DNA from: Tetracentron sinense
Lineage: Eukaryota; Streptophyta; Magnoliopsida; Trochodendrales; Trochodendraceae
Reading direction: 5' to 3'
Assembly (NCBI GenBank): GCA_015143295.1
Contig: JABCRI010001446.1
Span: 62,001-126,000, forward strand
DNA length: 64,000 bases
Part shown: piece by piece, positions 326 through 46,973 of the stretch
Position numbering within the stretch: position 1 is the stretch's first letter
Layout of the letters: every line of letters starts with the position of its first letter
Program-made: the position numbers and the translations under genes
Notes under the pieces: model-generated
Database searches by the model: none
The model's input: the letters and a program-made list of their open reading frames with translations, nothing else
Told to the model about the DNA's origin: nothing

Positions 326-513
326 CAACCGATCGCTCGGTCAGAAGTAGCGATCGATCGGTCCAAAACCGATCGATCGGTATCTATCGACTGGTCCAGA
401 ATTTTGTATGGGGAAAATTTCCAGAGAGTGCTTTTTTGACCGATCGCCCGGTCAAGAGCACCGATCGCTCGGTTGAGAACCGATCGATCGGTCATAACCA
501 CCGATCGCTCGGT
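326..513 (+). promoter_or_regulatory. Palindrome array of LTR A
   Basis: Copies of ACCGATCGATCGGT or its one-base variants (ACCGATCGCTCGGT, ACCGATCGCCCGGT) begin at about 328, 349, 368, 439, 460, 479 and 500, that is every 19-21 bp in two clusters. The clusters flank the sequence TTTTGTATGGGGAAAATTTT. The array ends about 65 bp before the TATA box. The placement suggests promoter-proximal binding sites; function is inferred. Confidence 0.8.
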
Positions 514-6489: not shown

Positions 6490-6748
6490 ATACGATTGAT
6501 CGCACACTTGTCTGCGATCGATCGCAGGTCTTTGCGATCGATTGCACATGGATGCGATCTATCGCACATGAACTCGAGCATTCTTGGACTGAATTTCCCT
6601 GCATGCGATCAATTACAGATATTTGCAATCGATTGCAGATCCTTGCGATCTATCGCACCTAGGGAAATCATCTATCGCATCTGACCTCGAGAGTTTGGGA
6701 ACCGTTTCGCCTGTATGCGATCGCACCAAACTTGCGATCGATCGCACC
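6490..6748 (-). promoter_or_regulatory. Palindrome array of J LTR, TGCGATCGATCGCA type
   Basis: Copies begin at 6491, 6513, 6533, 6553, then 6604, 6624, 6644 and 6734; most steps are exactly 20 bp. The core GATCGATC is shared with the other LTRs, but the outer arms are TGC/GCA instead of ACC/GGT. Both arms change together, as expected for a dimer-binding site or a selected palindrome. Confidence 0.8.
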
Positions 6749-9135: not shown

Positions 9136-10897
9136 TGTAGAACCCCAGATCTTGATGGCATGGCATGGTGAATAGTGTTGTGGATAGTATCTAAGGCTTA
9201 AAGCCTACTGTAATGCCTTGAATGATTATCAATGATAATGAGAACCTTGTTTTGATATATTTCAGATGGATGATGTGTTATAGCATGTAATAAAGCCTTA
9301 TGAATAATTTCTTAGTTTGTGGGTGTTTGGGATGAAGGAGTAAGAGTATAAAATACTCTAAGTGTCAACAATGGTTATGTCTTAACATACCCTCAACTTT
9401 GGGGAACTCTAGTTTTTACACCATTGATCATAATCGAATGATTCTTAAACCATTAGAAAGGTATTGAAACCCTCTTCGAAGTTCATGTTTATCATTTTTT
9501 CAGATTTCTAGTCAAAGATAGGTTAAATATTAGATTTTCAAAATTGGGTCTGCTCAAATTCTGGGCTGCAGAAATCCATTCCAGACCAGTCAGCTTTAGA
9601 GCCCAATTAGACAAATTATTTTTCAAAATTAAGATTTGTTCAATAAAGACAAAATTATTTGTCTTTGAATGATGAATCCAACGTAAGTTGAATTATCAAA
9701 ATCTGATAAGCTAGTCAAAAGTTATGGCCGAAACACCGAAGCGGAGATTTGCATAAAATCTCACTTCAGTGAACTTGAGCAAAACAACGTTTTTGAGTCC
9801 AGGGAGTAGCCCGCTCAAGCGAGATCGCACAGACACATTTTTTTAAAGGTTTTTCACTAACCTAACACTATATATACCCAATTTTGGGGGGTCTAAGGGT
9901 TCCAACACTTAGAGATGAGCATTTTGAGAGAAAAGAGAGGAAACCTAGGTTTCCAAAAGGGGGTTTTCTTGTAAGATCAAGGAGGAGCTCAAATCCTTAC
10001 TTCCCAAACTTCCTAAAAGCTTGGATCTTCTTCCTCAAGCATGAATTTCACCACTTGAAGCTTCGAATTCACTTCTACAAGCATTCTCAAGTCTTTTCCC
10101 TAGAAATTTCAATGTAGATACATTCTACTAACCTTCCTTGCTATAATTCATTAATATGTGTTTCTATTATTGTGTTCTTTTCTTCAAAAAATAAGATACA
10201 AGTATAATTTTGATAAACTATTTTTATTATGAACCATTGCTTGCTAGTAGGATGAAATGTTTGGGCTTTAGAGTAATTAATGGTTATTTTCTTGTAGGTG
10301 CAAATCTATTCTATGCTACATTAAGTTATGCTAAGTAACCCATGTATATGCCATGCTAAGTAACCTACGTATATGCTACACTATGCTAAATTATGCTAAG
10401 CAAACCATATATATGATAAGTACTTTAGGGAGACTAAGGTATATAGTTGTATAGGTGTATGTTATTGAATTAAATAGAATGAAATTGGGTTTAAGTGATG
10501 TATGATGGTTTCCTCACCTACCATGATAGCATATTCAAGACTTTATAAGATTATGGAAAATTGATAGTCTAACCTTAAAAGTAAGTTTGGAATTATGGTT
10601 TGATGAAATAAGCTAAGTAGTCATGTATGCCATCTTCATCAATGAAATTCCATGTTTTGGGATCTCATGTTGGGGTTTTGTTAAACTTGGGTTAGGTAAC
10701 CTGAGTTATTATCATATGTAAATACAAAATTTATATTTCAGTTTTAGTTGACTTTTGTACTTGGAATACAATTGATGTTATAAGAAATTTCAGGTTCACT
10801 ATTAGTCATGCCTTGTATATGCTTTGCAAGATGGTTTGAAGTATAAGTCACGTCACCAAAGCCTCATAACTCCTAAGGGGGATTTTGGGGCGTTACA
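9136..10897 (+). repeat. 5' LTR of element M (1762 bp)
   Basis: Starts TGTAGAACCCCAGATC and ends GATTTTGGGGCGTTACA. It includes a TATA box (TATATATA, about 9869) and a leader, then AAT^GTAGATACATTC (near 10110), matching the donor-like site of the other LTRs, and a 3' splice-site-like TTTTCTTGTAG^GTGC (near 10298). Imperfect ATGCTAAGTAACC repeats lie at 10320-10420. No clear palindrome array is visible, and the small ORF is absent. Confidence 0.75.
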
Positions 10898-14669: not shown

Positions 14670-14954
14670 AAGAAGTATGGCTGAGCATGGAATACTCAGC
14701 GTGTACCAAATGCTAACCAACAGTCATAGTACAGCAACAATGATATATATATAAGCAGGAAGCAGTTAATCTCATAACAGGAAAGTAAAGCAGTTTATAA
14801 TCAAGCTTGCATTTTCATAAAAGCCGATAAAACCCTTGAAAACGCCGTGCACTAGACTTGACTCAAATTGCCTCTTTCGTGCTTGAACTTGTCTTGTTGT
14901 ATCATGTCGTGTCATGCGTGTCATGCCATATCATGCTTGCTTGAAAAATAAATT

Positions 14955-15262
14955 ACTTGTGAGGGAAGGGAGACCCTTCTTCCTAAATGCTCAAGCCTGC
15001 CATGCCTTGTCTCTTGCTTGCTTGGAAAATAAACTACTTGCGAGGGAAGGGAGACCCTTCTTCCTAAATGCTCATGCTTGCCATGCCATGTATCTTGCTT
15101 GCTTGAAATTTAAACTACTTCTGAGGGAAGGGAGACCCTTCTTCCTAAATGTTCATGCTTGCCATGCCATGTATCTTGCTTGCTTGAAATTTAAACTACT
15201 TGTGAGGGAAGAGAGACCCTTCTTCCTAAATGCACTTGCGAGGGAAGGGAAACCCTTCTTTA
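14955..15262 (-). repeat. 81-bp tandem repeat in B LTR
   Basis: GAGGGAAGGGAGACCCTTCTT recurs at 14961, 15042, 15123 and 15204 with an 81-bp period, plus a shortened copy at about 15240. Each unit holds the imperfect inverted repeat AAGGGAGACCCTT. Long open frames through it on the plus strand (antisense to B) arise because the period is a multiple of three; I do not regard them as genes. Confidence 0.85.
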
Positions 15263-16161: not shown

Positions 16162-16347
16162 GACCAAGCGATCGGTGGTTATGACTGATCGATCGGTTGC
16201 CTACCGAACGATCGGTGTTCCTAACCGAGCAACCGGTCAAAAACATGCTCTTTGGAAAATTTCCCCATACAAAAAAATGCACCAGTCGATAGCCTTCGAT
16301 CGATCGGTTGTGGACCGATCAATCGCTACAATGGACCGATCGATCGG
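16162..16347 (-). promoter_or_regulatory. Palindrome array of B 3' LTR
   Basis: Seven or so copies of the ACCGATCGATCGGT family lie in two clusters flanking GGAAAATTTCCCCATACAAA. Several copies carry mutations (ACCAAGCGATCGGT, ACCGAGCAACCGGT). The intact partner array in the 5' LTR is at 53510-53674. Confidence 0.75.
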
Positions 16348-16613
16348 TGGTCTGCAGGTTTTTAACACTGAGTCCATTTTTCACCCATTCCTACTATTTG
16401 GACCCATTCTACTTCTATTCTAACATCTTCTAAACTTGACTAGAACCTCTTTAAAGCTTATAGGCTTTATTAAATAATTTATTTAATTAATTATAACATT
16501 CTTGACACAATTCCATCGAAGTTTCAAATTCTCATTTCATGAAATTGAGATTACAAGACACCATGTCTTGACACACGTCCCAAGGCATATACAAAAAGTT
16601 TTGGGGCTCTACA

Positions 16614-17300: not shown

Positions 17301-18662
17301 TGTAGCGCCCCAGATTTTCTACAAGCCCTGTCCATGTGCAAGCACTGTTCATGTGAGTGAATAATGCCGAGGGCACTAGTATTGGAAGGGCCAAAGGCCA
17401 TTATTATAAGTTAGGTTGTAATTGGAAAGTGAGGTGAATAGTGCTAGTGCACGAGGCATAAAGAGGCTAGGGCCTCTCATGCTTATCGGTGTGAATTCAA
17501 TGATCACCTAGGTGGGATGAAAACCTATGGAGAATGATCTATGAGGTGTGATTAGGGTGTTGGACACCAACAAAAAGAGTGTGAAAACCCTCGAGGTATT
17601 CTAGGTGTCGAAAAGGTATGTTTCGGCAATTTCCCCAACTTTAAAGGGCTCTACTTTAGTCGTCGTTATTCAGAATCGAGTGATAACTGAATTTTTCGAA
17701 AGGTATTAGAACCCTCTTCAAGGTTCATGTTGATCACTTTCCCTGATTTGGAGTCGGGGTCGAGTCAAAAGTGGGATTTCCAAAATCGGGTCAGCTGCAA
17801 ATCTGGGCTGTCGCAACCCATTACAGACCAGTCAGCTTTAGGGGCATTTTGGTCTATGAATAAAGAAGAATTAGAATTTCTTCAAAACATAAAAGTTGTT
17901 ACTCTTCAAACGACGAATCCAACGCAAGTTGAATCGTCAAAATCGGAACTCCAAGTCAAACGTTATAGCCAAAATACTGAAGTGTGTTTTGCAGCACCAG
18001 TCAATACCGAGAGCTCGGTCCACTACCGAGAGATCGGTCATCTATCGGTCCTACGCGATTTTCAAAAACTTTTTAGGGGTTTTTTGGTTTTTTGGCCACT
18101 CCACCCTTATTTTTACGGGTTGGCTCGAGCCAAGGGTGTTCATAAACACCCTTAGCCATATTTTGAGAGGGAGAGAAGAGGAAAGGGGTTTTCCAAAACC
18201 TAGGTTTCCATTTTGAAGAGAAATCAAAGGGGTTTGAGACCCTAGATCATCCTCAGCCAAGGTGAATAAAATGAATGATAAATTAAGGGAGTGCACGCCT
18301 AATTACCCATGAAATTGTTAGGGCTTATGTTAGTGTGTTTCTTGCGTTTCTTAAAATGTGAAAATTAGTACTTGCTTCAATTGTGATATGCTATGCTTTG
18401 TGAATCACCCCAATTTGTCATATTTAATTTCAAATGCAAGTATGTACACGATCCCACGAGCACGACATGAAATGACATGACTTACCGATGTTTTAAGGAC
18501 GGGATGTAGAGGTGGGGCATATCCTATGATATGTTGCCCTTCGCTTTTAGCAAGGACGAGACATGCATGCATTGCATAGGGAAGGGTCTCCCATCCCCTC
18601 GCATTACACGCATAGCATAGCATTGCATGATACGCATAGCATGGTATGGCATGTCATGCATA

Positions 18663-22028: not shown

Positions 22029-22278
22029 GGTCAAGCCCTTGCCATGCCAGAACAGAATGCTCAGACTGTAGAGCCCCGGACCTTTTCACATTTAATGCAT
22101 GACACTTTCGTTGCCATTTTACCTTTAAAGAGGTATACTTAATAAATAAGGAAGAAATTGGAAATTCCGAAATGTCAGAAATGTTCGTTTTCAAAGTACG
22201 AACCCAACGCAAGTTGAATCGTCAAAATCGGACGAACGAGTCAAAAGTTATGGCCAAAACAGTTTGGACCTGCAGACC

Positions 22279-22462
22279 ACCGATCGCTCGGTCCATGGAG
22301 CGATCGATCGGTCCAAAACCGATCGCTCGGAGGCTATCGACTGGTCGAGATTTTTGTATGGGGAAATTTTCCAGAGAGTGAAATTTTAACCGATCGCTCG
22401 GTTATGAAAACGATTGATCGGTAGGCAACCGATCGATCGGTCATTAACACCGATCGCTCGGT
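22279..22462 (+). promoter_or_regulatory. Palindrome array of solo LTR Q
   Basis: Motifs begin at 22279, 22299, 22318, then 22389, 22409, 22428 and 22449 (steps of 19-21 bp). The clusters flank TTTTTGTATGGGGAAATTTT. The array ends about 60 bp upstream of the TATATA box. Confidence 0.82.
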
Positions 22463-23931
22463 CCTCGCGTTTTACAGAATTTTCACTAAGGGCATTTTCG
22501 GCATTCGGGTGTTATACCCTTTCTTATATAGGATTGCCCGAGCCTTTAGGGCTCATTCTCAACCCTTAGAGTCTTTTGAGAGATAGAGAGAAAGGAGAAG
22601 GTTTTCCCTAAACCTAGGGTTTCCATTTTGAAGAGAAATCAAAGGGGTTTGAGACCCTAGATCATCCTCAAGTCTATTTTCTCCAAGTCTCGGCTCAAGC
22701 TCGTGTGGGGCACTCTCCTCAAGCTAGGGCAGCAACTCACGGTCGTTTTGGAAAGGGGGATTTCTTCCTCACTTGATCAAGGTCGGTACTTCTTGCTACC
22801 CTCCTAGTTATAGTTCTTCTTTTCCTTTATTTTCTTTGTGTTCCTTTATACATCCATGTATTATGAGATGGGTTGTGAATGGTGAATGGTGAATGATGAA
22901 TGGAGATGAATGTGGGCGATTGGATGCCGTGTGTATTGATGTGATGGATGAACGGGGAGGGCATTGTACCCATAATAAACATACATATGTGATGTGAGTA
23001 AAACCCACCTAGAAAAGCATGTTGTAGGGTAAATAAATAATGAACACACTATGTTTGATGAGATGCCAAGGTGAATAAAATGAGTGATAAATTAAGGGAA
23101 TAAATGTTTAATTATTCATGAAATTGTTAGGGCATATGATAGTGTGTTTCTTACATTTCTCAAAATGTGCGATTTATTACTTGTTCAAATCGTGATATGC
23201 TATGCTTTGTAAATTACCCAAATCGTCATATTTAATTCCAAATGCAAGTATGCACACGATCTCACGAGCACGCATGCATGACATGGATTACCGACGTTTT
23301 TCAAGAATAGGATTTAGAGGTGGGGCATATCCTATGATATGTTTTACCTCGCTTTTGGCAAGGACAAGACAATCATGCATTTTCATAAGAAGGGTCTCCC
23401 TTCCCTCACAAGTGCATACATAACATAAGAAGGGCCTCCCTTCCCTCACAAGTACATCTCACAAGAACATCTCACAAGTGAAAGGACATGACAAGCATGG
23501 GCATTTAGGAAGAAGGGTCTCCCTTCCCTCACAAGTAGTTTACTTTTTCAAGCAAGCATGACAAGACATGGCATGACAAGCATAATCATTCTAGGAAGAA
23601 GGGTCTCCCTTCCCTCACAAGTAGTTTACTTTCCAAGCAAGCATGACATGGCATGACACGCATGATACGATAGGATAAGACAAACGTGACAAGCTTCCAA
23701 GCAAGGAAATGGTATTTTCAGTCAAGTCAAGTGCACGGTATTTTCAAGGGTTTTACCGGCTTTTATGAATTCAAGCATGATTATATACTCCTTTACTTTA
23801 TTGTCCTGATATGAATTTTTCCTGTTTTATATGCATGAATTGTCTCCTGCTTTATATATGCTATCTGTATGCTATGACTATTGGTTAGTATTTAGTACCC
23901 GCTGAGTATTCCATGCTCAGCCGTACTTCTT

Positions 23932-24051
23932 ATGTCGGCAGGTGATGGCGGAGCAGCTGCTCCATTTGATATCTGTGCTCCGAGCCCTTGGGTGGAGGAG
24001 GAGTACGTCGAGGAGCCTTTGGAGGAACCTCCCGTAGAGGGTTACCATTAG
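23932..24051 (+). CDS. LTR small ORF of Q (39 aa)
   Basis: ATG 23932: MSAGDGGAAAPFDICAPSP, then WVEEEYVEEPLEEPPVEGYH, stop TAG. The residue composition is acidic and Pro-rich, with no signal peptide or membrane segment. It sits 12 bases downstream of the hairpin GCTGAGTATTCCATGCTCAGC. The function is unknown. Confidence 0.5.
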   Translation: MSAGDGGAAAPFDICAPSPWVEEEYVEEPLEEPPVEGYH

Positions 24052-24361
24052 GTGGTTGTAGATTCTATGTGGTTTAGCTGTGGGTGAGCATGAGTGATTA
24101 TATCCATGTATTTTGGCGGGCGTGTCCGCACTTTCTTTGTTTTGTTTTCTTTTGTATTAAACTTGGACCATGTGTATATATATACTTAGAGGTTTGTTAG
24201 ACTTCCGTTGTGTTTTATAGTTATGCTTCCGCTGTTATCCTCTATTGTATATGTCCTGTGAGTTTTGCAGGTTGGTTCGTCAAGCAAGTCATGTAAGTAA
24301 TGGTTAAGTCGTCCAAGATTCACTCTAACTCCTAGGGTGGGTTTTGGGTCGCGACACAGAC

Positions 24362-24705: not shown

Positions 24706-27384
24706 TGTAGCGCCCCGGATTTTCTACAAGCCCTGTCCATGTGCAAGCACTGTTCATGTGAGTGAATAATGCCGAGGGCACTAGTATTGGAAGGGCCAAA
24801 GGCCATTATTATAAGTTAGGTTGTAATTGGAAAGTGAGGTGAATAGTGCTAGTGCACGAGGCATAAAGAGGCTAGGGCCTCTCATGCTTATCGGTGTGAA
24901 TTCAATGATCACCTAGGTGGGATGAAAACCTATGGAGAATGATTTATGAGGTGTGATTAGGGTGTTGGACACCAAGGAAAAGAGTGTGAAAACCCTCGAG
25001 GTATTCTAGGTGTCGAAAAGGTATGTTTCGGCAATTTCCCCAACTTTAAAGGGCTCTACTTTAGTCGTCGTTATTCAGAATCGAGTGATAACTGAATTTT
25101 TAGAAAGGTATTAGAACCCTCTTCAAGGTTCATGTTGATCATATTCCCTGATTTTGAGTCGGGGTCGAGTCAAAAGTGGGATTTCCGAAATCGGGTCAGC
25201 TGCAAATCTGGGCTGTCGCAACCCATTACAGACCAGTCAGCTTTAGGGGCATTTTGGTCAATGAATAAAGAATAATTAGAATTTCTTCAAAACATCAAAG
25301 TTGTTACTCTTCAAAAGATGAATCCAACGCAAGTTGAATCGTCAAAATCAGAACTCTGAGTCAAAAGTTATAGCCAAAATACTGAAGTGTGTTTTGCAGC
25401 ACCAGTCAATATCGAGAGCTCGGTCCACTACCGAGAGATCGGTCATCTATCGGTCCTACACGATTTTCAGAAAATTTTTAGGGGTTTTTTGGTCTTTTGG
25501 CCACTCCACCCTTATTTTTAAGGGTTGGCTCGAGCCAAGGGTGTTCATAAACACCCTTAGCCATATTTTGAGAGGGAGAGAAGAGGAAAGGGGTTTTCCA
25601 AAACCTAGGTTTCCATTTTGAAGAGAAATCAAAGGGGTTTGAGACCCTAGATCATCCTCAAGCACGTTTTCCTTCAAGATCTCGGCTCAAGCTTGTGCGG
25701 AGCTCGTGTTCCAAGCTAGGACAGCAACTCACGGTCGTTTGGAAGAGGGATTTCATCCTCATCTCTTCAAGGTCGGTACTCCTTACTACCCTCCTAGTTA
25801 TATCTTCTCTTTTCCTTTATTTCTTCTTGTTTTCCTTCATATATATATATATATATATATGTTATGAGATGGGTGGTATGTATGGTAAATGGAGATGGAT
25901 GTTGGCGAATGGATGCCGTGTGGATGATGTAATGAATGAATGGGGAAGGGCATGGTACTAATAATAAACATACAAGTGTGATGTGAGTATAACCCACCTA
26001 GAAAAGCATGATTTAGGTTTAAGTAATTAATGAACACACCCTATGTTTGATGAAATGCCAAGGTGAATAAAATGAATGATAAATTAAGGGAGTGCACGCC
26101 TAATTACCCATGAAATTGTTAGGGCTTATGTTAGTGTGTTTCTTGCGTTTCTTAAAATGTGAAAATTATTACTTGCTTCAATTGTGATATGCTATGCTTT
26201 GTGAATCACCCCAATTTGTCATATTTAATTTCAAATGCAAGTATGTACACGATCCCACGAGCACGACATGAAATGACATGACTTACCGATGTTTTAAGGA
26301 CGGGATGTAGAGGTGGGGCATATCCTATGATATGTTGCCCTTCGCTTTTAGCAAGGACGAGACATGCATGCATTGCATAGGGAAGGGTCTCCCATCCCCT
26401 CGCATTACACGCATAGCATAGCATTGCATGATACGCATAGCATGGTATGGCATGTCATGCATAGAGATGCTAGTTGCGACGGTCTATGAACGGTAGCTAG
26501 GCATACATGGTTCATGCATCGAGATGCTAGTTGCGACAGTCTATGAACGGCAGCTAGGCATACATGGTTCATGCATAGAGATGCTAGTTGCGACGGTCTA
26601 TGAATGGAAGCTAGGCATACACGGTTCATGCATAGGGATGCTAGTTGCGACGGTCTATGAACGGCATGTAGGCATCCCATTTCAGCGTAGGGGTAGAGCA
26701 TATCCTAAGATATGTTTTGCTCCGACACCACAAGTACACGAGCATGTTCAATTTCCAAGAAAGCACGCATGATTAGACACACTCGACAAGGTCAAGCGAG
26801 ATGATTTCAAGAGTTTTTCCGACTTAGATATGATTACAGCATGAACTATAAACTGATTGTTTTTCCCTGTTAATTGTATGAACTGTTTCCTGCTTTATTC
26901 TAATTCTATATTGCTATGTTGCTATGATTGTTGGTTAGTATTCGGTACCCGCTGAGTATTCCATGCTCAGTCGTACTTCTTATGCCAGCAGGTGATAGTG
27001 TAGCGGCTGCTCCTTATGGTATCTGTACTCTGAGCCATTGGGCAGAAGAGGAATGCGTTGTGAAACCTATGGAGGAACCTCCGGTAGAGGGTTACTATTA
27101 GGTGGTGATAGATTCTGAGTGAATAGCTGTGGGTGAGCATGAGTGATTATATCCATGTATTTTGGTGGGCATGTCCGCACTTTCTTTGTTTTGATTTCTT
27201 TGTATTAAAACTTGGACCATGTGTATATACTTAGAGGTTTGTTAGACTTCCGCTGTATCTTATAGTTATGCTTCCGCTGTTATCCTCTATTGTATATGAT
27301 CTGTGGGTGTTTTGCAGGTTGATTTAAGGTTAGGTCACGTCGCCAAAGTATCCTAACTCCTAGGGGGTATTTTGGGGTGCGACA
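24706..27384 (+). repeat. 3' LTR of C (2679 bp)
   Basis: Starts TGTAGCGCCCCGG, ends TTTTGGGGTGCGACA. It retains the segment deleted from the 5' LTR, with the donor-like TTCAAG^GTCGGTACT (25771/25772) and an (AT)11 microsatellite (25839-25860). It has four 57-bp repeats and a small ORF at 26982-27101 (MPAGDSV..., 39 aa). Confidence 0.92.
26982..27101 (+). CDS. LTR small ORF of C 3' LTR (39 aa)
   Basis: ATG 26982, 39 codons, differing from the 5' LTR copy by MPAG for MSAG and TLSH for TPSH; the end EEPPVEGYY is unchanged. Confidence 0.42.
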   Translation: MPAGDSVAAAPYGICTLSHWAEEECVVKPMEEPPVEGYY

Positions 27385-31862: not shown

Positions 31863-32801
31863 TGTCGCGACCCAAAACCGACCCTAGGAGTTAGAGTGAA
31901 TCATGGACGACTCATCATAACTTGCATGACTTGCTTGACCAAAATAACCTGCAAAAGACCTGGAGCATATACAATAGAGGACAATAATAGTAGAAACATA
32001 ACTACAAAGCACAGCGGAAGACTAACAAACCTCTATGTATATATATATGGGATCCAAGTTTATACAAAAAGATACACAAAGAAAGTGCGGACAGGCCCGC
32101 CAAAATACATGAATACATCTCTCTCAACTCACCCACAGATACTCACTCAAAATCTACCACCTCTAATAATAACCCTCTGCTGGAGGTTCCTCGACATACT
32201 CCCCCTCCACCCAAGGGCTCGGAGCACAGATATTAAAAGGAGCAGCCGCTCCGCTATCACCTGCCGACATAAGAAGTACGGCTGAGCATGGAATACTCAG
32301 CGTGTACCAAATGCTAACCAACAGTCATAGTACAATAACAATGATATATATATAAGCAGGAAGCAGTTACTCTCATAACAGGAAAGTAAAGCAGTTTATA
32401 ATCATGCTTGCATTTTCGTAAAAACTGATAAAACCCTTGAAAACGTCGTGCACTTGACTTGACTCAAATTGCCTCTTTTGTGCTTGAACTTGTCTTGTTG
32501 TATCATGTCGTGTCATTCCATGTCATGCTTGCTTGGAAAATAAACTACTTGTGAGGGAAGGGAGACCCTTCTTCCTAAATGCTCAAGCCTGCCATGCCAT
32601 GTCTCTTGCTTGCTTGGAAAATAAACTACTTGTGAGGGAAGGGAGACCCTTCTTCCTAAATGCTTATGCATGCCATGTCATGTATCTTGCTTGCTTGGAA
32701 TTTAAACTACTTGTGAGGGAAGGGAGATCCTTCTTCCTAAATGCTCATGCTTGCCATGCCATGTATCTTGCTTGCTTGGAATTTAAACTACTTGTGAGGG
32801 A
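31863..32801 (-). repeat. 5' LTR of B, first part
   Basis: Plus-strand start TGTCGCGACCC. It contains the small ORF (32163-32270) and the 81-bp repeats (about 32545-32800), and is interrupted by element D after the TSD copy AGGGA (32797-32801). It continues at 52601. Confidence 0.92.
32163..32270 (-). CDS. LTR small ORF of B 5' LTR (35 aa)
   Basis: ATG 32270 to TAG 32163. It equals the 39-aa copy in the 3' LTR except for substitutions (for example MSAG, FNICAPSP) and a 12-bp deletion that removes four residues of the VEEPVEEP repeat while keeping the frame and the GYY end. Confidence 0.42.
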   Translation of the reverse strand: MSAGDSGAAAPFNICAPSPWVEGEYVEEPPAEGYY

Positions 32802-34982
32802 TGAAAGTATGCCTCTTTTTAATTTTAGAAACACAGTTCTTGGGGGGCATACATCGAATCCCAAGATCTTACTAAGATTCTAATTGATTTTATTCAATGA
32901 AGGTTAGAATAACATTCACCTTTGCGACTTTGAAATTGTTAAGTCAAATCCACATAAGAATAGTACTCGCAAAACTTCACAAGTGTCAAGTCTCCTGTCG
33001 ATTCACACGAACCTTCTTTTTCCTTTAAAGCTTTCTCTAATGGAAGCTAATGGTCATTCCAAATTCCATGTTCTTTTATCTTTTCTTCTTTTCTTTGATC
33101 CAAGAACTTGTCTTGATCAAACAAGATCCAATCTTGATCTTCAAAGAACTTGTTCTTGATCATCAAGATCAAAAACCATACAAAAAGAAAGAAGGGGAAG
33201 GGTGACCGTACACCCTCAAAGGGGGAGAGGGCTGGGCGTGAACTTGAGGAGAGGGAGAGAAGAAAAAATTCTGGAGAATTATATATTCCTTAAAGGCCTG
33301 GGCATCCACTCCTTTATATATAAGTTCCCTCTTGGTTGCTTGAATTGTAATCCAATTATAATTCATTAACCTTATCCTAATCCAATTAGGATTCCTCAAT
33401 AGTTTCCTTTATTGATTATTCTCCTAATCCAATTAGGATTAATCTTAAAAGAAACTAACCTTATCCATTAGTAACTAATCTTATCCTTATCCAATAAGGA
33501 ATCTTGAATTAGTAACTAACTAATGGAATCCCTAACAATTAGGGAATCTTTAATTAGTAACTAACTAACTAACCTTATCCAATAAGGTGTTAATTATTTA
33601 GAAACTAATTAAACTAAAACTTCCTCCATGAAGTGGACGTCCCACCCTAGGTGGGTCCCACTCCACACGTCCCCAATGGGTTCTAAACCCTTTTGGTCAC
33701 TTTAACTATTCTTTTAAAATATTCTCCAATGGGTCCTACCCATTTGGTATTTCACATCTAATGTGATTCCACATTTTAGAGCTTCACTATACCATATAGT
33801 GATCACTTAGAGCAATTAATTAATTTAATTAATAATTAAATTAAATACTTTAAGAAGGTCCTTGTGTGTGGGATCTAAAGGGATCTCCTATTTCCAGTTG
33901 TGGGACCAAGTACTCAACCTTTTTGGTTAAAGCATTGTTACTAGGAAACACTTTTCCTACACTCCATTAGGATTATATAATTTTATCTATATCCCTGGAC
34001 TTCCACCAATCACAATTAATGTCCATTAACATAATGTGATTAACCTCCATAAATTAGAGAATTGCTTGTAAGTACCATCTCGCAATATATTTACAAATAA
34101 ATCCTTCCACAGTCCGATATCACTTGTAATCTTCCAGGATTGGAACAATTCCATTGTCTTAGTCCCTAGCTTATGAATAGAACCCTTTCTCATGATTACT
34201 TTTTCATTGAACTGAACCTCCAAAACACTTTTGAAGAAACATTAGAAAAGAACTGACATATATATTTATATATACTTTTCCATATTAAAAATATCAACTT
34301 CGATAAAAACCATTTACCAAAAAGCACCAGTACTAGACTTACCAGTTCAGTTCAACAAGTATCACCTTGATATCATTATCTCTAATTAAGGAGTTGTGGA
34401 TTCCTTATTGAGTGTTTACACACTTCTCCAAACATTGTGTACATGTCCCAACGTACCCGGTGTTAGTCCTGTGTATTGGACATTGCCGATTGGCACATCA
34501 AAGCCATATAGACAGATGTCTGAGAAGATGTTAACCTCTCAGGTCTAAGGACAATTTTTTAAATGGATAACCCTAATACAATTTGACAGTGTATTCCATA
34601 GGGTATCCACTAGTGACCCCGTTCAGTATTATGTACTTGCTACATATACTCACATGTTAGTCAAGAGTCACCACTCTCTGTGAATGAGATTCATCACACT
34701 ATCTCATAGAACTACACATGTGTAAGCCATGATGAAGTTCGGCGCCCAACCAGTACTCTAGAGGCTTCGAACAATATTAGGTTTACAAGGAACCGGAAAA
34801 TCATATCTCCTCGCAACCTTTGCATGATTTTCCTACAATGTTACATATGGAACTTTATGTCATCATCATATGAGACAGTAATTAATATAAATACCCTTTA
34901 TAGTTGATTGTGTGAATATGATGCTTGTCTAATCAACATAGAAAAGTCTCTTATTGGCTTTCGAGGGCATATATGTCGAACA
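32802..34982 (-). repeat. 3' LTR of D (2181 bp)
   Basis: On the minus strand it starts TGTTCGACATATATGCCC and ends GGCATACTTTCA. A TATATATAAAGG promoter box lies at 33312-33323. CCTAATTGGATTAGGAT-type repeats follow at 33340-33600. No palindrome array or small ORF is seen, unlike the Ty3 LTRs. Confidence 0.88.
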
Positions 34983-37900
34983 ATCTCCCACTTGCACTCG
35001 AAGCCAATTAGATGTAATGCCTATCTTCTCAGTGATGTTTCTTAAACACTAGCTGAAGCATAAATTAATATACATGGGTTTGTCATGTCTGCTTTACCAC
35101 AATTATTGTAGTGATGCAATAACACTTGCAACTCTTGCAAATTTATTATCAATAACCACAGTCTTAAAAGACTAAACAAAAATGATACTGTCTAACAGTC
35201 ATTTTCAAAAGTTAACATGCTTGTGCTTTATCATTGTACAATGCTCCGGACTAATCTGACAAATATCTTATCACATCAACATGTGATAAATATCCGGTCT
35301 AGTACAAGTATACTTTCTCATGATATCATATATCTAAGTGAAACAGATTCCATCCCATAAAGGTAGAAACTCTTTTCTTGAAATCTTACTTGCACAAAAA
35401 CATGATTGTTATTGGGAGAATAACAATATCATTTTCTTTTTGTCTCTCAACCATTTAGGACTAAGAAAACATGTTGTCAAAGTTATTGTCCTTCATTTCA
35501 TAATTGCTAGATCAAATCTAAGAGAAAAATAATATTCATACTTCATTCACAATGAAAAGAATATTATCTTTAGATAGAGCCAGGAAAGTAATTATACTCC
35601 CACTAACCAATTCGCACACAAAGGATACTTTCATTCTTAGATGAAAATCAGACATTTGATTATTTAATCAGAATAAAAGTTAGTCCAACTACAGATTCTA
35701 GGACCTGTGGGTTCTAGTGTACTATTTAGGTATAGTGAAAGTAGAAAGTTGATCTCTATCAATTCTCATAGTTATTGGTCTATTGGGCTTCCGTTCTAGA
35801 ACAATTCTAGATTCAGTTTCTCTTCTAGGAAACTTACATTCCTATTTACAAATATCTTTTGTTATCCAGGAATAGAGACTAAGTATCTCTAATGCGAATC
35901 CCAAGCTCATCTTCCATCAAATCATATCAAATATAATTTGATTTAACAACACCATCATGCTATGGTTTGTTCTGGGAATTATCTGAGACAAGATGTAATG
36001 AGAGTAAATTATGAAATTTCTATTAAGAGGTACTCTTCTCAATCATGGAAGACTTACCTAGCTGTTTCTTTATTTCAGTACGGAATTCCTTGAACTTTTC
36101 AAAGAAGGTGAAATAAAGTTAGCTACCTTTTAATGGAAGATTCATATAATTACGATCATCCGACTTTTGTCCCATTCCCAAGTAGAAGTTTTATCTACTC
36201 GGATTTCTCCTTCTCCTTAACAAACATGCAACTATTGCACTTATGCAAGATCATACCGAGCATTAGGAGTTGGAGGTTCCAACAATTAAGTTGGACTTGA
36301 TGAGTATACAAACTGGACAATCCTTCCAAAGGTTTGTCTTGTATCCAATGACCAATTGCTTCACTATGAAGCACAATCCTTATACTTTACTTTCTTCTCA
36401 GAAGAGCCCTTGTCCATACTACCAAAATACATTTCCAATGGAAAATCTTGGATTTCTTTCCTTTGCATAAATGCTCGGGATTTAGAAAATCCAATTCTTT
36501 TGAACATCTTTGCAAGTAGCATTGAACTCTTCAAAGGCTCTTAGTCATATACAACATGTAGAATTTCAGACAATCTGATTTCCTACTTGTTTAACATAAC
36601 CATATTAACGGACTCTGGGAGTTTCTCGAGAATCATATCCTCTTATCCCATAAATTTATTTCAATTTATCTCAGCATCAAGAATTGGGATTTATGAATCC
36701 AATGATCTCTATCATATTCTTTGTGACTGGGTTTCCCTAGTCAACTTGGTGTCTACTTGTCATTTTATATAGTCAACTGCCTAGCAGCCCTATTGTATTC
36801 TGTAAATATCTTAAATGACATTTACCATTAGTAGTAAGAACTTGGATAATTCTTTAGATAGTAAGCACAAACTTGAGATTCCTTTTCCATTCCAAACACT
36901 TTGAATTGGTCAAAAGATTCTCATTAAAGTCTTGGTAAGGTGGTTATAGAATGACATGACAATTAAAACTTACATCATAATTTCACACATTATAATATCA
37001 TTAGATCAGGGCTTTTGATCTTTGATGATATTGCTCATCATTCAATCAAATTTCATGACCCCTCAATCTATAAAATTAGGAAATATGCTACTTCATATTT
37101 CTGATGAGCATTGGGTACCTTATAATACACATGCAATCTTCCATTTTAGGATAGTACCACACATGCACTACAAGGTAGATAGTAACTATCCATCACTGAG
37201 CATCTCATGCATAACTCCTTATGTAAATCAGTGATTCCTAATTTTCTTGCGACCTCCAAGGACAACATGACTGTCACTGTTTCAGCAGTCATGTTCCTTG
37301 GTTAAGTGAAACCCATCATTTTGGTTTATCATATGATCAAGTAGGGCTGTGCCCCCATTTTAGTTGACACTCCCTATCAGGCCATACACAAACCTATCTA
37401 CTATAGAAATAAGGTTCTAGGAGTTTAACTCAGACTGAATTATGTCAATACCGTTTGGCAAGACAAGATTTAGGCTAATTAATTCCTAGTCTTATTGATA
37501 ATGGAAGGTCATAGGGCAATATTATCCCGTAGGATAGATTAGCCCATTTAATTCACTTAATATTTTTCTTGAGGGAAAACAGAATATTATGAACAAATTA
37601 TACATCTAATGCATATATAAAAAGCATTCACAATATTTATCATTGTATCATATGTATAAAGCAATATACAAAATCATCACATGATAATAAATCAAATTTT
37701 GTTTTAATTAGATCAAACTAATTCCAATGAACTCCCACTAGCCCCAAAAATCTTTATAGATCAAATCCAATGGTACAAAGGTTATTTTTAACATCAATGG
37801 GTTTTAGATGGTTCATTCATCCATATGATGGACCATTGGTCATTCCAAGCACCATGGGCCCAAAATAACAATTATAAAGTGTCTATGTGCATCACTAAAG

Positions 37901-39356: not shown

Positions 39357-39641
39357 TAGGTTGTCACGCCCCAAAATACCCCCTAGGAGTTAAGGGATAC
39401 TTTAGAGGTGACTACGTGAACCTGCCAAACCATCCTGTAATGGAAGAGGCTAAACATAATATAATACAATGATAATCAGAGCGCGGAAACTAAACATAAG
39501 TTCGGAAGCATAAGCCAACTTTTTCTTTTCTTCTATTACTCCATATAGTATTCCAAGTTAACATCTACTAAATACAATCAAAGTAAAGGTGGACATGCCC
39601 ACCTATCAAAATACAAAAAGGAACTCTCTAACACTCTCCTC

Positions 39642-39782
39642 TCAACAGTAGTCGAGGTATGGCCACACATCCAAGTCCCCATCCTCTTGAGACTGCCATG
39701 GGATAGGTGGCTCCCTCTCCTCTACATACTCCTCCTTGACCCAAGGCTCGGGGTCGAGGACATCCACAGTACCTGCCGACAT
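39642..39782 (-). CDS. LTR small ORF of E 3' LTR (46 aa)
   Basis: ATG 39782: MSAGTVDVLDPEPWVKEEYV, then EEREPPIPWQS and an acidic tail ending WPYLDYC, stop TGA. Only MSAG and the PWVxEEYVEE core are shared with the 39-aa copies of the other family. Over the core the codons differ at third positions (GTC/GTG, TAT/TAC, GTA/GTC), which points to selection on the peptide. The role is unknown. Confidence 0.5.
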   Translation of the reverse strand: MSAGTVDVLDPEPWVKEEYVEEREPPIPWQSQEDGDLDVWPYLDYC

Positions 39783-40060
39783 AAAAGTACGGCTGAGCAT
39801 GGAATACTCAGCGAGTACAAACTACTAGCTAACCATAACAATAGCGAAAGCATAACAACAGTGAGCAATACAAGATATTAATTTGAAGCAATAGTGAAAG
39901 CATAAGATACATAGCCATATCTTGACATGCGTGTATGAATGCAAAAACCTCGGTAAAACTCATGTCTCGGAAACCTTTTTCGTGTCTCGGTCAAATCATG
40001 TATGTGTGTCGTGTCTTGTCTTGTATTTCATGTCTTGATTTGTTCTTGACTTGTATACTT

Positions 40061-40475
40061 GTGAGCCAGAGGCTAGCACCCTTCCTTGGGCTACTAACCT
40101 CCTTGTCATGTTCTTGTTCCATTTCTCTTGTGAGCCAGAGGCTAGCACCCTTCCTTGGGCTACCAACCTCCTTGTCATGTTCTCTCTTGCATTTCACTTG
40201 TGAGCCAGAGGCTAGCACCCTTCCTGGGGCTACCAACCTCCTTGTCATGTTCTTGTTTCATTTCACTTGTGAGCCAGAGGCTAGCACCCTTCCTTGGGCT
40301 ACCAACCTCCTTGTCGTGTTCTTGTTTCATTTCACTTGTGAGCCAGAGGCTAGCACCCTTCCTTGGGCTACCAACCTCCTTGTCGTGTTCTTGTTTCATT
40401 TCACTTGTGAGCCAGAGGCTAGCACCCTTCCTTGGGCTACCAACCTCCTTGTCATGTTCTTGTTTCCTTGTTTGC
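40061..40475 (-). repeat. 69-bp tandem repeat, six copies, in E 3' LTR
   Basis: GTGAGCCAGAGGCTAGCACC recurs at 40061, 40130, 40200, 40269, 40338 and 40407. The 5' LTR has five copies (47677, 47746, 47816, 47885, 47954). Antisense and sense frames through it are open because 69 is a multiple of three. Confidence 0.95.
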
Positions 40476-41439
40476 TTTATTATGCACAATTACTCTTGGA
40501 AAACCCAATTCATGCATGCATGCGTGCTTGTGTGCTTGTCAATAGTGGTAATCATGATGACATACTTGAATGGGCGGATCACAAGAATATGACATTTCAA
40601 TCCTTAACATAGTGGTATGAGAATTTAGGCAACATATAGCACATTTGAGCAATTTATCATTCCTAAGGAATTTACACAATTTCTATTTCCATTTTCTTCA
40701 TTAAGTCCATTTATTCCTAGTTTAGGCATTTTGTCAAACACATAGCATGCAAGGTTCCTTAATGGTTCATCTTCTTCTTTTTAGTGCCTACTTTCCATCC
40801 AAAATCAAGGTATGTTCATTATTGGTAAAGTACCCATCCACCATTTCCATCACACACATCACCCAACATACACCTCGGCATCCAATCGCCACATCAACAC
40901 CCACACACATCCATACCTTTTTTCTTATCTTATTTAGGTTCATTGGAGATGATACATTTTATATGGGAGGCAAACATAATAGCATAAATCACATTTCATA
41001 AGGAAAACCTAGATTTATTGCTAGGGTAAGTTAGTAGGGTGTACTAACCTTGAACCAAGGCTTGATCCTTAGTAGAAACCTTGATTGAAGCTCCAACTCG
41101 CAAGAAGAAAGATCCTTGCTTGAAGAAGGCTTAGTGTGGGGAAAACAACCTTGAAGTTGCCGTAGAAAACGCTGCCCTACCTTGGAGAAGGAGTCCCACA
41201 CGAACTTGAGGTTGGATTTTCGAAATCCAAGCTTTTAGGGATGCTCTTGGGGTGCTTAAACCATTGATCTTACTCTCAATGGAAAGGGGGTTTTGGAACC
41301 CTAGTTTCTTCTCCCTCTCTCTCAAATATCCCTAAGTGTTGTAAGTGAGGCCTCAAAGGGTCGAGCAAACCCTTATGGGTAAGGGTTTAACACCCAAAAG
41401 ACGAAAACGCCCTTACTGAATTTTCTGAAAAACACGAAG

Positions 41440-41624
41440 ACCGAGCGATCGGTGGTTATGACCGATCGATCGGTTGCCTACCGAGCGATCGGTGTTTATG
41501 ACCGATCGACCGGTCAAAAACTCACTCTTTGGAAAATTTCCCCATACAAACTTTCTGACCGCGCGATAGCTACCGATCGATCGGTTATGGACCGATCGAT
41601 CGCTGACTGGACCGAGCGATCGGT
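41440..41624 (-). promoter_or_regulatory. Palindrome array of E 3' LTR
   Basis: Motifs begin at 41440, 41461, 41480 and 41501, then (after GGAAAATTTCCCCATACAAA) 41558 (degenerate), 41572, 41591 and 41611. The arrangement is 4+4. The identical array in the 5' LTR is at 48985-49169. Confidence 0.85.
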
Positions 41625-41836
41625 CCTCTGTATGTCTGGACTGTTTTGACCATATCTTTTGACTCGCTCGTCGGATTTCGACGATTCAACTTGCGTTGGG
41701 TTCGTCTTTCGAAAACGCACATTTCTGACGTTTCGAAATTTCCAATTTCTCTCTTATTTATTAATTAGACTACGAAAACGGCCAATTAGCTATGAAAGTG
41801 CCATTCATTAAAGATGAAAAAATCCGGGGTGCTACA

Positions 41837-41849
41837 TTCTCCCCCCCTT
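41837..41849 (-). other. Polypurine tract of E
   Basis: AAGGGGGGGAGAA (minus strand) directly before the 3' LTR. Confidence 0.92.
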
Positions 41850-41945
41850 ACAAAAATTTCATCCTCGAAATTTGGACAATGCGTGCTTTACAATTTAAAC
41901 AACTTAGCATAACAATTTGAAACAAATTACAAGTCATACATAAAA

Positions 41946-44900
41946 TCATTCAAACAACTCGGGGTACTTCGCCTTGACTTCGGCCTCACGTTCCCACGTA
42001 GCCTCTTCTCGAGCGTGATGTTGCCATTGCACGAGAACTAGCGGAATAGTCTTGTTGCGAAGTACTTGGTCTCTCCTATCCAAAATATGAACCGGCTTCT
42101 CAACTAAAGTGAGGTCCTCTCGGATCTCAATCGGACCAAGCTCGATGACATGAGAAGGATCCGAGATGTACTTCCGAAGCTGGGAGATATGAAACACGTT
42201 GTGGACCGCCGCCATGTGAGCGGGCAAGGCAACACGGTAAGCCACCTCGCCAACTCGAGTAATGATCTCGAACGGACCCACATATCTCGGGCTAAGCTTG
42301 CCTCTCTTCCCGAATCGCATAACACCTTTGGTCGGTGAAATCCTTACAAACACAAAATCACCGACTCGGAATTCAAGATCCCTCCTTCGGTTGTCGGCAT
42401 AGCTTTTCTGTCTATCTTGTGCGGTCTTCAACCTCTCCCGGATAAGCTTGACCCTATCCACGGTTTGTTCAATTAACTCGGGGCCCAAAATCTTTCTTTC
42501 TCCCACTTCATCCCAATACAACGGGGATCTACAACTTCTTCCGTACAAAGCCTCGAAAGGCGCCATTTGTATGCTTTCTTGATAACTATTGTTGTAAGCG
42601 AATTCCACCAAAGGTAGGTGATCTTCCCAACTTCCCTTGAAGTCTAGCATACATGCTCGGAGCATATCTTCAATAACCTGATTCACCCTCTCGGTTTGCC
42701 CGTCGGTCTGTGGGTGGAAAGCTGTGCTAAAGTCTAATCGGGAGCCCATTGCACCTTGAAAACTTTTCCAAAACCTGGATGTGAATCTTGGGTCTCTATC
42801 CGACACAATACTCACTGGCACCCCATGTAATCGGACTATTTCCTTGATGTATAGCTCCGCTAACTGATTGGAGTTGAATGTAGTCCGGTACGGTAAGAAA
42901 TGAGCGGACTTCGTGAGTCTATCAACAACTACCCATATAGCATCAGTCTTCCTAACCGTCTTCGGCAACCCCACGATGAAATCCATAGAGATATGTTCCC
43001 ATTTCCACTCGGGAATAGGGAGGGACTGCAAAAGGCCCGCTGGTCTCAAATGCTCTGCTTTCACCTGTTGGCATACCAAACACCGTGCCACATACTCCGC
43101 AACCTCCCTCTTCATGTTTCGCCACCAAAAGTGACTCTTGAGGTTCCGGTACATCTTTGTCCCCCCGGGATGCACTGTATACTTAGACCGGTGAGCTTCG
43201 TCCATAATCTCTCTCCGAAGGTCTGCATTGGCTGGGACACAAAGCCTTCCCTTGAATGTAATAGCACCTCGGCTAGTGAGAGAGAAGTCCGTACTACCCT
43301 TGGCCACTTCCCTATCCCGGAAAACCAACAAGTCAGTGTCCGTGGCTTGATACTCCTGGATCAAGTCTATAAGGTACGGCCGAACTGTAACATTTGCCAA
43401 AACCGGACTGCGGACAGAATCGTTCACACTGATGTCTAGATTTGCCAAATCGTCTAACAGTCTCCATTCCCGCACCAACATGTGAGCCAACAACCCCGAT
43501 GGTTTCCTACTCAGAGCGTCTGCCACCATATTTGCTTTTCCCGGGTGATATTGGATAGTGCACTCGTAGTCCTTTAAGAACTCAATCCAACGCCGTTGTC
43601 GTAAGTTTAACTCTTTTTGGGAAAAGAGATACTTGAGGCTCTTGTGGTCCGTGTACACATAGAACTCCACCCCGTACAGATAATGTCGCCAAATTTTAAG
43701 TGCAAACACGACCGCCGCAAGCTCCAAGTCGTGAGTGGGGTAGTTCTTTTCATGCTCTTTCAACTGCCTTGACGCATAGGCAATGACCTTCTTGTGTTGC
43801 ATTAGGACACACCCGAGTCCAACATGCGAGGCATCGCTGTACACCTCATACCCAAAAGGTCCAGATGGCACAGTAAGGACAGGGGCTGTGGTGAGGCGTT
43901 TCTTCAACTCTTGGAAACTTACTTCACATCGGTCACTCCAACTGAACTTTGCACTTTTTCTTGTCAAGTAGGTGAGAGGTGCAGCCAAACTGGAGAATCC
44001 CTCCACAAATCTCCGGTAGTAGCCTGCCAATCCGAGGAAACTACGTATCTCCGTAACGCTCTTGGGCCTCTCCCAACTCATGACTGCCTCAACCTTGGCT
44101 GGATCTACAGAAATACCCTCGGCCGACACCACATGTCCAAGAAATGCGACCTTCTCTAACCAGAACTCGCACTTACTCAATTTGGCATATAGCCTATGCT
44201 CTCTCAACATCTCCAGAGCAAGGCGGAGGTCTCGCGCGTGATCTTCCCGTGTCTGGGAATACACCAAAATGTCATCAATGAATATAATCAAGCATCGATC
44301 CAAGTAAGATCGGAACACCCGGTTCATCAAATCCATGAATGCCGCCGGTGCATTCGTCAGCCCAAAAGGCATGACAAGGAACTCGTAATGCCCATACCGA
44401 GTCCTGAAAGCCGTCTTCTGAACATCTTCCGCCTTGATCCTTAATTGGTGATACCCCGATCTAAGATCAATTTTGGAGAAGAATCTCGCTCCCTTCAGTT
44501 GGTCAAACAAGTCGTCTATCCTTGGCAAGGGATAACGATTCTTGATAGTTACCTTGTTCAACTGACGGTAGTCTATACACATCCTCATAGACCCGTCTTT
44601 CTTCTTTACAAAAAGGACCGGAGCTCCCCACGGTGACACACTTGGTTGGATGAAACCAAGTTGTTGTAACTCCTCAATCTGCTTCTTTAATTCTTCAAGC
44701 TCTATAGGGGCCATTCTATATGGTGCCCTTGAAATCGGAGCGGTACCCGGAGCAAGCTCTATAGCGAATTCAATCTCTCTATCAGGAGGTAATCCGGGAA
44801 GTTCTTCCGGGAACACATCTAAGAACTCACTCACAACTGGAATAGCCGATGAGTTTTGTGATTCTGGGTGTGCTATACTCAAGGCTGCGAGGCGAGCAAT

Positions 44901-45266
44901 GTCCCTCTCTCTTAATCCTCGGAAGTGAAAAGGCTTACCCCCTTCCGGCTTGAAATTCACCATCTTTTCAAAACATGCAACATGCCCGTGATGGCTTGCC
45001 AACCAATCCATACCAAGAATGACGTCAAAGTCTAAATCTTGGAAACCCAGGACGATAAGGTCGGCTAACAATTCATTCTCCCCCACTTGAACCACACTAT
45101 CCCTGAATATCTTGTCCGTATCAACCGACTTGCCGAGTGGAGTTGCAATGGTCAACTCCCGCTCCAACGGAGTAGCCTCAGTCGAAAAGCCCTTTGCAAA
45201 ACTTGGGGAGACAAAAGAGTGAGTAGACCCTGTGTCTATCAACACTCGAGCGAGACATTCGTTCAC
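41946..45266 (-). CDS. pol: E Pol polyprotein (protease, RT, RNase H, integrase, chromodomain)
   Basis: Open for 1106 codons from the GTG at 45266, which is not a likely start: no ATG lies between the upstream stop and the protease, so translation probably enters by splicing from gag. Domains: retropepsin DTG at 11-13; RT with FFSKID (D267) and FIDD (D331, D332); RNase H with D478, E515, D540 and D583; integrase zinc finger H692, H699, C729, C732; integrase core D762, D823, E859 with 35 residues between the last two; GPF at 997-999; chromodomain about 1059-1106. All catalytic residues are present. The RT/RNase H wording ([17 protein letters not shown]) and the chromodomain place it in the Tekay/Del chromovirus lineage. 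Chromodomains of such elements are thought to steer integration to heterochromatin, which fits the nested surroundings. Confidence 0.96.
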
Positions 45267-45277
45267 TAATAAAGCGC

Positions 45278-45411
45278 CTGTGCGATTAAGTAACTAATAT
45301 CAGTAGATTTCAAATAGTAACAAGCATCATACATAGGTAACCCTTAGTATAACTAACCGCATAACAAGCCACAGAAATTTTATACAACTTAAACTCAAAA
45401 TTCTCGCGTAC
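45278..45411 (-). other. Putative gag-pol intron of E
   Basis: 134 bp with borders GTGCAAG^GTACGCGAG and TTAATCGCACAG^GCGC. Unspliced, Gag stops five codons after the donor. Spliced, the codon CAA is followed by a split Gly codon and the frame runs into the protease ([14 protein letters not shown]). Two in-frame stops inside the stretch rule out simple read-through, and no slippery frameshift site is evident. The positions and phase are shared with B and J. Confidence 0.7.
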
Positions 45412-46961: not shown

Positions 46962-46973
46962 GCTCTGATACCA
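46962..46973 (-). other. Primer-binding site of E (tRNA-iMet)
   Basis: TGGTATCAGAGC on the minus strand, four bases (GAAG) inside the LTR border. Confidence 0.95.

Follow-up and report, generated by a model that had tools for sequence, protein, structure and literature searches.

Tnt1 and Tto1, with their U3 activator boxes, and ONSEN, with its heat-shock elements, carry repeated U3 sites for host transcription factors beside the LTR promoter. All three are Ty1/copia elements with known stress factors, and to our knowledge none of them uses the palindrome or the plan described here. Tekay/Del chromoviruses are known for their long LTRs. A closer precedent is found in the Sireviruses (Ty1/copia), as palindromic RM boxes have been reported in 13 of the 21 examined, with 8 to 32 boxes per element and 3 to 14 in the 3' LTR. 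Most of these boxes form CpG islands, the ends of which lie 37 bp upstream of the TATA box on average (PMC2829016). The same paper calls them Sirevirus-specific, the comparison there being with other Ty1/copia elements. The preliminary description of the DNA analyzed here knew of no earlier report of such an array, which is no longer tenable at the level of kind, as the Sirevirus boxes are palindromic and were already known (PMC2829016).

The arrays studied here are found in LTRs spread over a window of 64 kb, that is, the whole stretch of DNA analyzed, and their coordinates are collected in Table 1 together with those of the elements that carry them.

Table 1. Palindrome arrays, LTRs, and carrier element in the window (positions are those of the window)
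Feature	Position	Strand	Details
A array, ACC type, 3+4	328-513	+	TATAAATAGG 65 bp past array
A2 array, other palindrome TGCGATCGATCGCA	6491-6746	-	3 (6644, 6624, 6604) + 4 (6553, 6533, 6513, 6491)
H, LTR-like, with common upstream block (63-70% identity)	9391-9870	+	negative case
B array, ACC type, 3+4	16163-16348	-	3' LTR of insertion with 5' LTR B2
C array, ACCGAGAG[CA]TCGGT x2, step 19	18006-18038	+	
Q solo LTR (2.3 kb)	22067-24356	+	CAGAC on both sides; inside span of element C
Q array cluster 1	22279-22331	+	sites 22279, 22299, 22318; degenerate abutting copy 22332-22345
Q constant 20-mer TTTGTATGGGGAAATTTTCC between clusters	22353-22372	+	
Q array cluster 2	22389-22462	+	sites 22389, 22409, 22428, 22449
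Q TATA-like CTTATATAGG	22523-22532	+	60-62 bp past array
C2 array, first copy ATCGAGAGCTCGGT	25411-25443	+	second LTR of element C
Element E, chromovirus, Gag and Pol ORFs uninterrupted	39362-49380	-	TSD ACCTA, PBS TGGTATCAGAGC, G-rich PPT
Element E LTRs	39362-41835 and 46978-49380	-	99.2-99.4% identical over two main pieces
Element E ORFs	Gag 45398-46681; Pol 41949-45293	-	
E1 array, ACC type, 3+4	41440-41624	-	3' LTR of element E
E2 array, ACC type, 3+4	48985-49169	-	5' LTR of element E
B2 array, 3+3, one 21-bp unit missing	53510-53674	-	5' LTR, same insertion as B
F array	55989-56061	+	ACCGATCGCTTGGT / ACCGGTAGATCGGT / ACCGATCGATCGGT / ACCGGTAGATCGGT, steps 19, 21, 19
G array, ACC type, 3+3	59408-59570	-	
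J array, seven copies, other palindrome CTACGAACGATCGTAG / CTATGATCGATCGTAG	61437-61629	+	TATAAATAGG 54 bp past array
I array, ACC type, 3+4	63071-63255	+	TATAAATAGG 55 bp past array

One carrier, element E, is a young Ty3 element. Pieces of it match Retrotrans_gag, Ty3_capsid, zf-CCHC, RVT_1, RT_RNaseH_2, and SH3_Tf2-1 (Pfam), and the final 200 amino acids of its Pol match the Chromo domain (PF00385) at residues 155 to 199 with E = 3.4e-5 and 24.1 bits, just under the cut-off of 25.1. The position of SH3/Chromo, C-terminal to RT within one ORF, corresponds to the Ty3 order. From these domain matches, including the Chromo match just below cut-off, we can classify E as a chromovirus, and we take it to be Tekay-like, a name given from its 2.4-kb LTRs. 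The named relatives of its Gag are from plants (Vitis, Actinidia, Camellia, Musa, Juglans, and others). The best two of 89 matches, which are not among these, have identities of 55% and 61%. The host is probably an angiosperm. Element C has the TSD TACAA and contains the solo LTR Q within its span, while B and B2 are the LTR pair of one older insertion with the TSD GTGTG.

Several other features were observed. The B2-B insertion (14259-53939, minus strand) now covers about 40 kb, with C (and Q in its span) and E inside. Tandem repeats of about 81 to 93 bp are found in the downstream parts of several LTRs (14912-15233, 32526-32801, 58120-58382, and 23487-23655), and most of their units carry GGGAAGGGAGACCCTTC, itself an inverted repeat; the LTRs of E have different repeats, of 69 bp, at 40057-40466 and 47673-48013. 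A direct repeat pair of 2.2 kb (32802-34983 and 50421-52596) is 95.6% identical.

All seven motif starts originally given for Q are correct, with the exact ACCGATCGMTCGGT at four of the seven sites and at most two mismatches at every one. Allowing up to three mismatches on both strands, the window contains 128 matches against 3.34 expected, a count that none of 100 shuffles reached (the largest gave 11), and all 128 lie inside the arrays of 11 LTRs, namely A, B, C, Q, C2, E1, E2, B2, F, G, and I. A motif scattered outside LTRs or randomly spaced had been named as grounds for abandoning the idea, and within the 64-kb window neither was seen. Missing from the loci listed at that stage were the arrays of C, C2, and F and the arrays of other palindromes in A2 and J. 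When the window was searched, independently of the motif, for 14-bp palindromes that are nearly perfect and occur in clusters, 22 clusters were found, and 12 of these are the arrays of A, A2, Q, E1, E2, B2, and G, those of B, C, C2, F, I, and J being below the cluster rule of the search. The remaining 10 are mostly AT-rich, or are ATGCATGC runs in both E LTRs, and a few of their members contain CG. We also counted, again without the motif, the 14-bp palindromes with at least 6 of 7 pairs in 14 U3 pieces. For nine of them (A, A2, C, Q, E1, E2, B2, G, and J) none of 500 dinucleotide shuffles had as many; the counts of Q and G each include one non-array site, and of the three palindromes in C one is an array site. 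The count was reached by 5 shuffles of 500 in B, 1 in I, 14 in F, and 11 in C2, where the two palindromes counted are non-array sites. H provides a negative case, as a search for 14-bp palindromes at the same threshold found none there, and no array.

The arrangement of the sites is quite rigid. A full array of the ACC type has three sites, a 71-bp step over the constant 20-mer, and four more sites, the steps being 20 to 21, 19, 71, 20 to 21, 19, and 21 bp, while in the 3+3 arrays of B2 and G the final 21-bp unit is absent as a whole. The gap step is identical in all seven ACC-type arrays measured, and 46 of the 47 within-cluster steps, every array type included, fall between 19 and 22 bp, the exception being one of 16 in J. 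The preliminary description had proposed a step of about 20 bp (it is 19 to 21 bp within the ACC clusters), and with the constant gap step the spacing is stricter than claimed there. It had also proposed a 4+4 plan, which has to be corrected to 3+4, as the "fourth" site of cluster 1 is a degenerate copy at a 14-bp step that abuts site 3 in A, E1, Q, and I. The constant segment, supposed to be always flanked by both clusters, is indeed found there with 0 to 2 changes in the seven ACC-type LTRs aligned, but the short arrays of F, C, and C2 are without it. Likewise, the idea that all copies share one helical face fits within a cluster, at steps of 19 to 21 bp, but would not follow for the whole array, since 71 bp corresponds to 6.8 turns at 10.5 bp per turn.

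In sense orientation, U3 comprises an upstream block (...CGAAAGACGAATCCAACGCAAGTTGAATCGTC...GTTATGGCC) common to most of these LTRs, followed by the array, the TATA box if there is any, and a GAGAGA-rich stretch. The TATA box is clear in four LTRs, at the distances given in Table 1; the 55 to 65 bp first reported apply to A, Q, and I, with J only 1 bp nearer, and elsewhere the box is weak or was not found. Weak TATA-like letters are all that is seen in E1, E2, B, B2, and G, at 61 to 62 bp, and in A2, at 28 bp, and the patterns tried detected no TATA box in F and C. Upstream of the array, B and B2 are unlike the other LTRs, so the array behaves as a module.

Among the 47 ACC copies the loosest position is near the center (position 9 is C in 25, A in 21, and T in 1), as expected for two half-sites. 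Full palindromy is not required, as pair 6-9 is symmetric in 21 of 47 copies and pair 2-13 in 36 of 47, site 2 having the form [AT]GCGAT(C/T)GATCGGT in seven of seven LTRs. By its letters, site 2 reads as a hybrid of TGC and ACC half-sites.

The sites were compared with their surroundings, first between elements and then within one insertion. The alignment comprised the ACC-type LTRs A, B, B2, Q, G, E1, and I, seven in all, leaving out E2, which is identical to E1 over 496 U3 bases, as well as six LTRs with differing arrays (F, C, C2, A2, J, and H). Pairwise differences amount to 149 of 1904 (7.8%) in the sites, 405 of 1319 (30.7%) in the spacers, 523 of 2114 (24.7%) upstream, 681 of 1931 (35.3%) downstream, and 18 of 420 (4.3%) in the constant 20-mer, counts that are not independent, as the LTRs are related and all come from one 64-kb window. 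When the site mask was moved through 166 rotations, the true register alone gave a difference that low. The contrast is visible in individual pairs, namely A-E1 (3/98 in sites versus 23/67 in spacers, p = 6e-8), A-I (9/98 versus 29/67), Q-E1 (7/98 versus 21/66, p = 8e-5), Q-I (9/98 versus 23/65), and B2-Q (5/84 versus 17/59), and is not seen in the close pair Q-G (3/84 versus 2/59), which is too similar to show one. Gap openings are also rarer in the array, where they number 0.77 per 100 aligned pairs if 10 losses of whole units are disregarded, compared with 1.47 in the upstream and 2.80 in the downstream sequence.

Within one insertion the picture is different. B and B2, whose arrays are expected to have been identical at insertion, are the single LTR pair used as the decay control, and they differ at 8 of 84 site positions (9.5%; 3 of the 8 changes are CpG transitions) and at 74 of 1344 positions (5.5%) over the whole alignment. 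Spacers and 20-mer together account for 6 differences in 81 positions, the upstream sequence for 8 in 265, and the downstream sequence for 52 in 914. The site differences are not below the overall rate, so after insertion the sites are lost no more slowly than the sequence around them. As they are constrained between elements and decay within B/B2, we can assume that the sites are kept by selection during replication, and a mutational cold spot is ruled out. Such a contrast would be predicted by selection on replicating copies, not by cold spots or homogenization. It also bears on the possibility that slippage and gene conversion made and homogenized the copies without any function, in line with the whole 21-bp units missing from B2 and G and with a tandem repeat of period 70 in J. 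Homogenization would have carried the spacers along, yet these diverge far more than the sites, and neither the decay of the B/B2 sites nor the slot-specific variants common across LTRs, such as site 2, agree with it. We therefore consider a neutral tandem repeat very unlikely, being largely refuted by the site/spacer contrast and the B/B2 decay.

Related LTRs carry other palindromes in the same U3 slot and at about the same step, namely TGCGATCGATCGCA in A2, CTACGAACGATCGTAG in J, and ACCGAGAGATCGGT in C. Symmetry is retained in these as well: in the eight copies counted in A2 the outermost pair is symmetric in all and the next pair in seven, and in the seven copies of J the outer three pairs are symmetric throughout. 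C and C2 share the form listed for C in Table 1, and F has a mixture with ACCGGTAGATCGGT. Compared with the ACC type, both ends differ together in A2 and J, and most copies have a core containing CGATCG. We dropped the idea that A2 follows the exact plan of Q, as its gap step is 51 and not 71 bp and it has extra upstream copies (one at 6733 plus weaker ones); its other steps are 20 to 22 bp. Those of J are 21, 16, 49, 21, 49, and 21 bp. On the 110-bp upstream block, identity is 82% for A2-A, 80% for A-I, and 85% for A-Q. The LTR nearest to F, in which only part of the sites are of the ACC type, is C (85%), so that ACC-type sites occur in both groups. The changes in A2 and J could tentatively be regarded as separate, with branch supports of 0.2 to 0.99. 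In F, half-sites CTATCGGTC after the array (56056-56090) are repeated at steps of about 11 bp, that is, one helical turn.

CpG is abundant in the arrays, with observed/expected ratios of 1.32 to 1.93 in 12 of them. The array of E2 has 24 CpG (1.85 observed/expected) versus 47 (0.49) in the rest of that LTR, in which the first 150 bases, upstream of the array, are likewise CpG-rich (1.73). Such retention of CpG, in an LTR otherwise poor in it, is consistent with selection, with low methylation, or with the two combined. It could also indicate an anti-silencing island, in which the CG-dense array would recruit a factor that keeps U3 unmethylated, by a VANC-like logic, with transcription following from that. 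This reading, which we consider unlikely, agrees with the CpG-rich U3, with CpG transitions away from the slot consensus at only 6 of 282 CpG positions, and with the use of different motifs by the tandem arrays of related elements, which has been reported for VANC targets as well (PMC5735166). However, selection for any reason would retain CpG, the string "palindrom" is absent from the main text of PMC5735166, and no likely factor of its own was seen among the frames of E that were searched. Besides gag and pol it has 16 stop-to-stop frames of at least 90 amino acids, and the five searched gave no Pfam match above cut-off (the only one listed was DUF807, 18 bits against 25). About 300 bp separate the 5' LTR from the gag ORF and about 110 bp separate pol from the 3' LTR, so the additional 5' ORF that characterizes one Tekay group is absent from E, as it is from two other sunflower Tekay groups (PMC11728184). 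Coding sequence across the array was rejected, with just one 90-amino-acid sense frame listed there in E.

The constraint could instead operate at the level of RNA. Once transcribed, in the 3' U3 or in antisense, the palindromes might form hairpins or dimer contacts for packaging or dimerization, or give rise to siRNAs as in maize Sireviruses, whose palindrome clusters are where small RNAs concentrate (Bousios 2016 as cited in PMC10760457). Predicted folds are stable in part of the arrays, with z-scores of -7.8 in part of J, -7.6 in cluster 2 of E1, -5.5 in the A2 cluster, -4.3 and -4.1 in cluster 2 of Q (both strands), and -3.4 in the whole Q array. Cluster 1 of Q, on the other hand, folds hardly better than shuffles (-1.3; 22 of 200 shuffles), and the piece just downstream of the array already gives -2.6. 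The z-scores do not decide on a role in RNA, as palindromy alone is enough to lower the folding energy. A stem would need no fixed 20-bp step, 71-bp gap, or TATA distance, siRNA targeting would select against the arrays, and maize Ty3 elements are generally described as lacking an obvious structure peak (PMC10760457), all of which makes a function at the RNA level quite unlikely. No known RNA family was recognized, with 0 Rfam matches at gathering score.

A last alternative takes the palindromes as targets into which related elements would preferentially insert, or through which LTRs would recombine. Nested elements abound in the window, and plant LTR elements weakly favor palindromes as places to insert (PMC6911290), but that preference involves 5 to 6 nt and is not significant for Tekay (p = 0.61; PMC6911290), and none of the four defined insertion points (B, C, E, and Q) is flanked by array sequence. 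On these grounds we reject an integration target as hardly credible.

The reading we prefer, with a probability of about 0.6, is that a DNA-binding protein, dimeric and probably of host origin, docks on the array as on a multimeric platform and drives LTR transcription. The array would be the cis-regulatory core of the LTR promoter, directly upstream of the TATA box, with six to seven palindromic 14-bp operators that would each dock one dimer of a sequence-specific DNA-binding protein, set in two clusters at steps of about two helical turns around TTTGTATGGGGAAATTTTCC as a second conserved element. Cooperative binding would activate LTR transcription, keep the CG-rich U3 open where the element replicates, or both, and after insertion a copy would be freed from replication-linked selection and its sites would decay. 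In some families the array may have been rebuilt with other arms (TGC..GCA and CTA..TAG) around the CGATCG-containing core, which can be read as a switch of partner or of partner specificity. The initial suggestion of a multimeric, promoter-proximal regulatory site in U3 thus gains from the position, the selection between elements, and the fixed spacing, and the word "regulatory" is probably justified. We also consider, as a doubtful extension, that chromovirus families co-resident in one genome possess interchangeable lock arrays with the same ruler (slot, step of about 20 bp, and CGATCG-containing core) and family-specific ends. A rapidly evolving family of DNA-binding proteins would then supply a separate reader for each array, and the switching of arms would record an arms race or a partitioning between elements and host regulators.

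Relatives were also sought outside the window. In viral contigs, the two-palindrome pattern and a 20-base piece of the upstream block had 0 matches each, and an RT piece gave seven pattern matches, no relative among them. In genome contigs the RT piece found two relatives among 25 stretches, both on short contigs filed under bacteria, which look like plant contamination of bacterial records, probably so for the first. This one (L001:1-3816, filed under Streptomyces clavifer) has a Ty3 RT 74% identical to that of E and stops short of the array position. The second (L002, filed under Labilibacter sediminis) is a plant-like Ty3 element, and its LTR contains at 701-805 a CG-rich tandem array with units of 18 to 19 bp, AGACTTACGCAAGTGCGCA. 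A TATA-like TATGTATATTAG follows directly, and the distance from the array to the PBS is about 430 bp. This may be a structure of the same type from another plant, but it is a lead only, as the repeat is weakly palindromic.

In comparison with known systems, E resembles Tekay/Del chromoviruses in its Gag-Pol with a chromodomain after the integrase (PMC6317226, PMC11728184). The portions of these descriptions consulted contain no palindrome array, with 0 occurrences of "palindrom" in the main text of PMC11728184, and no such array in Ty3 or Tekay LTRs appeared among the matches listed in a literature search (titles and starts of abstracts, open-licence PMC). VANDAL elements also have tandem arrays of short motifs in non-coding DNA that differ between related families, but they are DNA transposons with their own VANC gene, and their motifs (YAGTATTAY and AGTTGTCC/AC) are not palindromes (PMC5735166); here the partner may be an unlinked protein, none having been seen among the frames searched in E. 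The likeness to the Sirevirus RM boxes is closer, as these are palindromes of 10 to 20 bp, mostly containing CG, at least eight per element, clustered in the upper half of the LTR and upstream of the TATA box, with a sequence that varies by element around a common signature (PMC2829016). The window likewise has multiple palindromic U3 boxes before the TATA box, the latter clear in A, Q, I, and J only. The arrays described here differ in their carriers, which are Ty3 chromoviruses, E matching Ty3 and not Ty1/copia in domains and order, and in their core, which contains CGATCG within ACC/GGT, TGC/GCA, or CTA/TAG arms instead of the CGG-CCG of the RM boxes, a core that the Tnd-1 box ACAATCGATTGT lacks too (PMC2829016). 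They differ further in that the sites form two clusters, one on either side of a constant 20-mer, whose steps and separation are fixed, and in that constraint between elements was measured here against decay within one insertion. The kind of palindromic box is thus known from Sireviruses, and what appears to be new is that Ty3 chromoviruses have a promoter of this kind, in which the boxes follow a fixed ruler of two clusters and their arms can be switched. Palindromic box arrays were hitherto a Sirevirus feature, and the same kind of promoter would now extend to the Ty3 chromoviruses, which are abundant in plants; if this is true, two superfamilies either arrived at the same promoter logic or have it in common. 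A simple test of LTR motif function that can be used on any genome is offered by the contrast seen here between elements and within an insertion, and the arm switches provide natural variants for finding the binding protein, and hence what turns these elements on.
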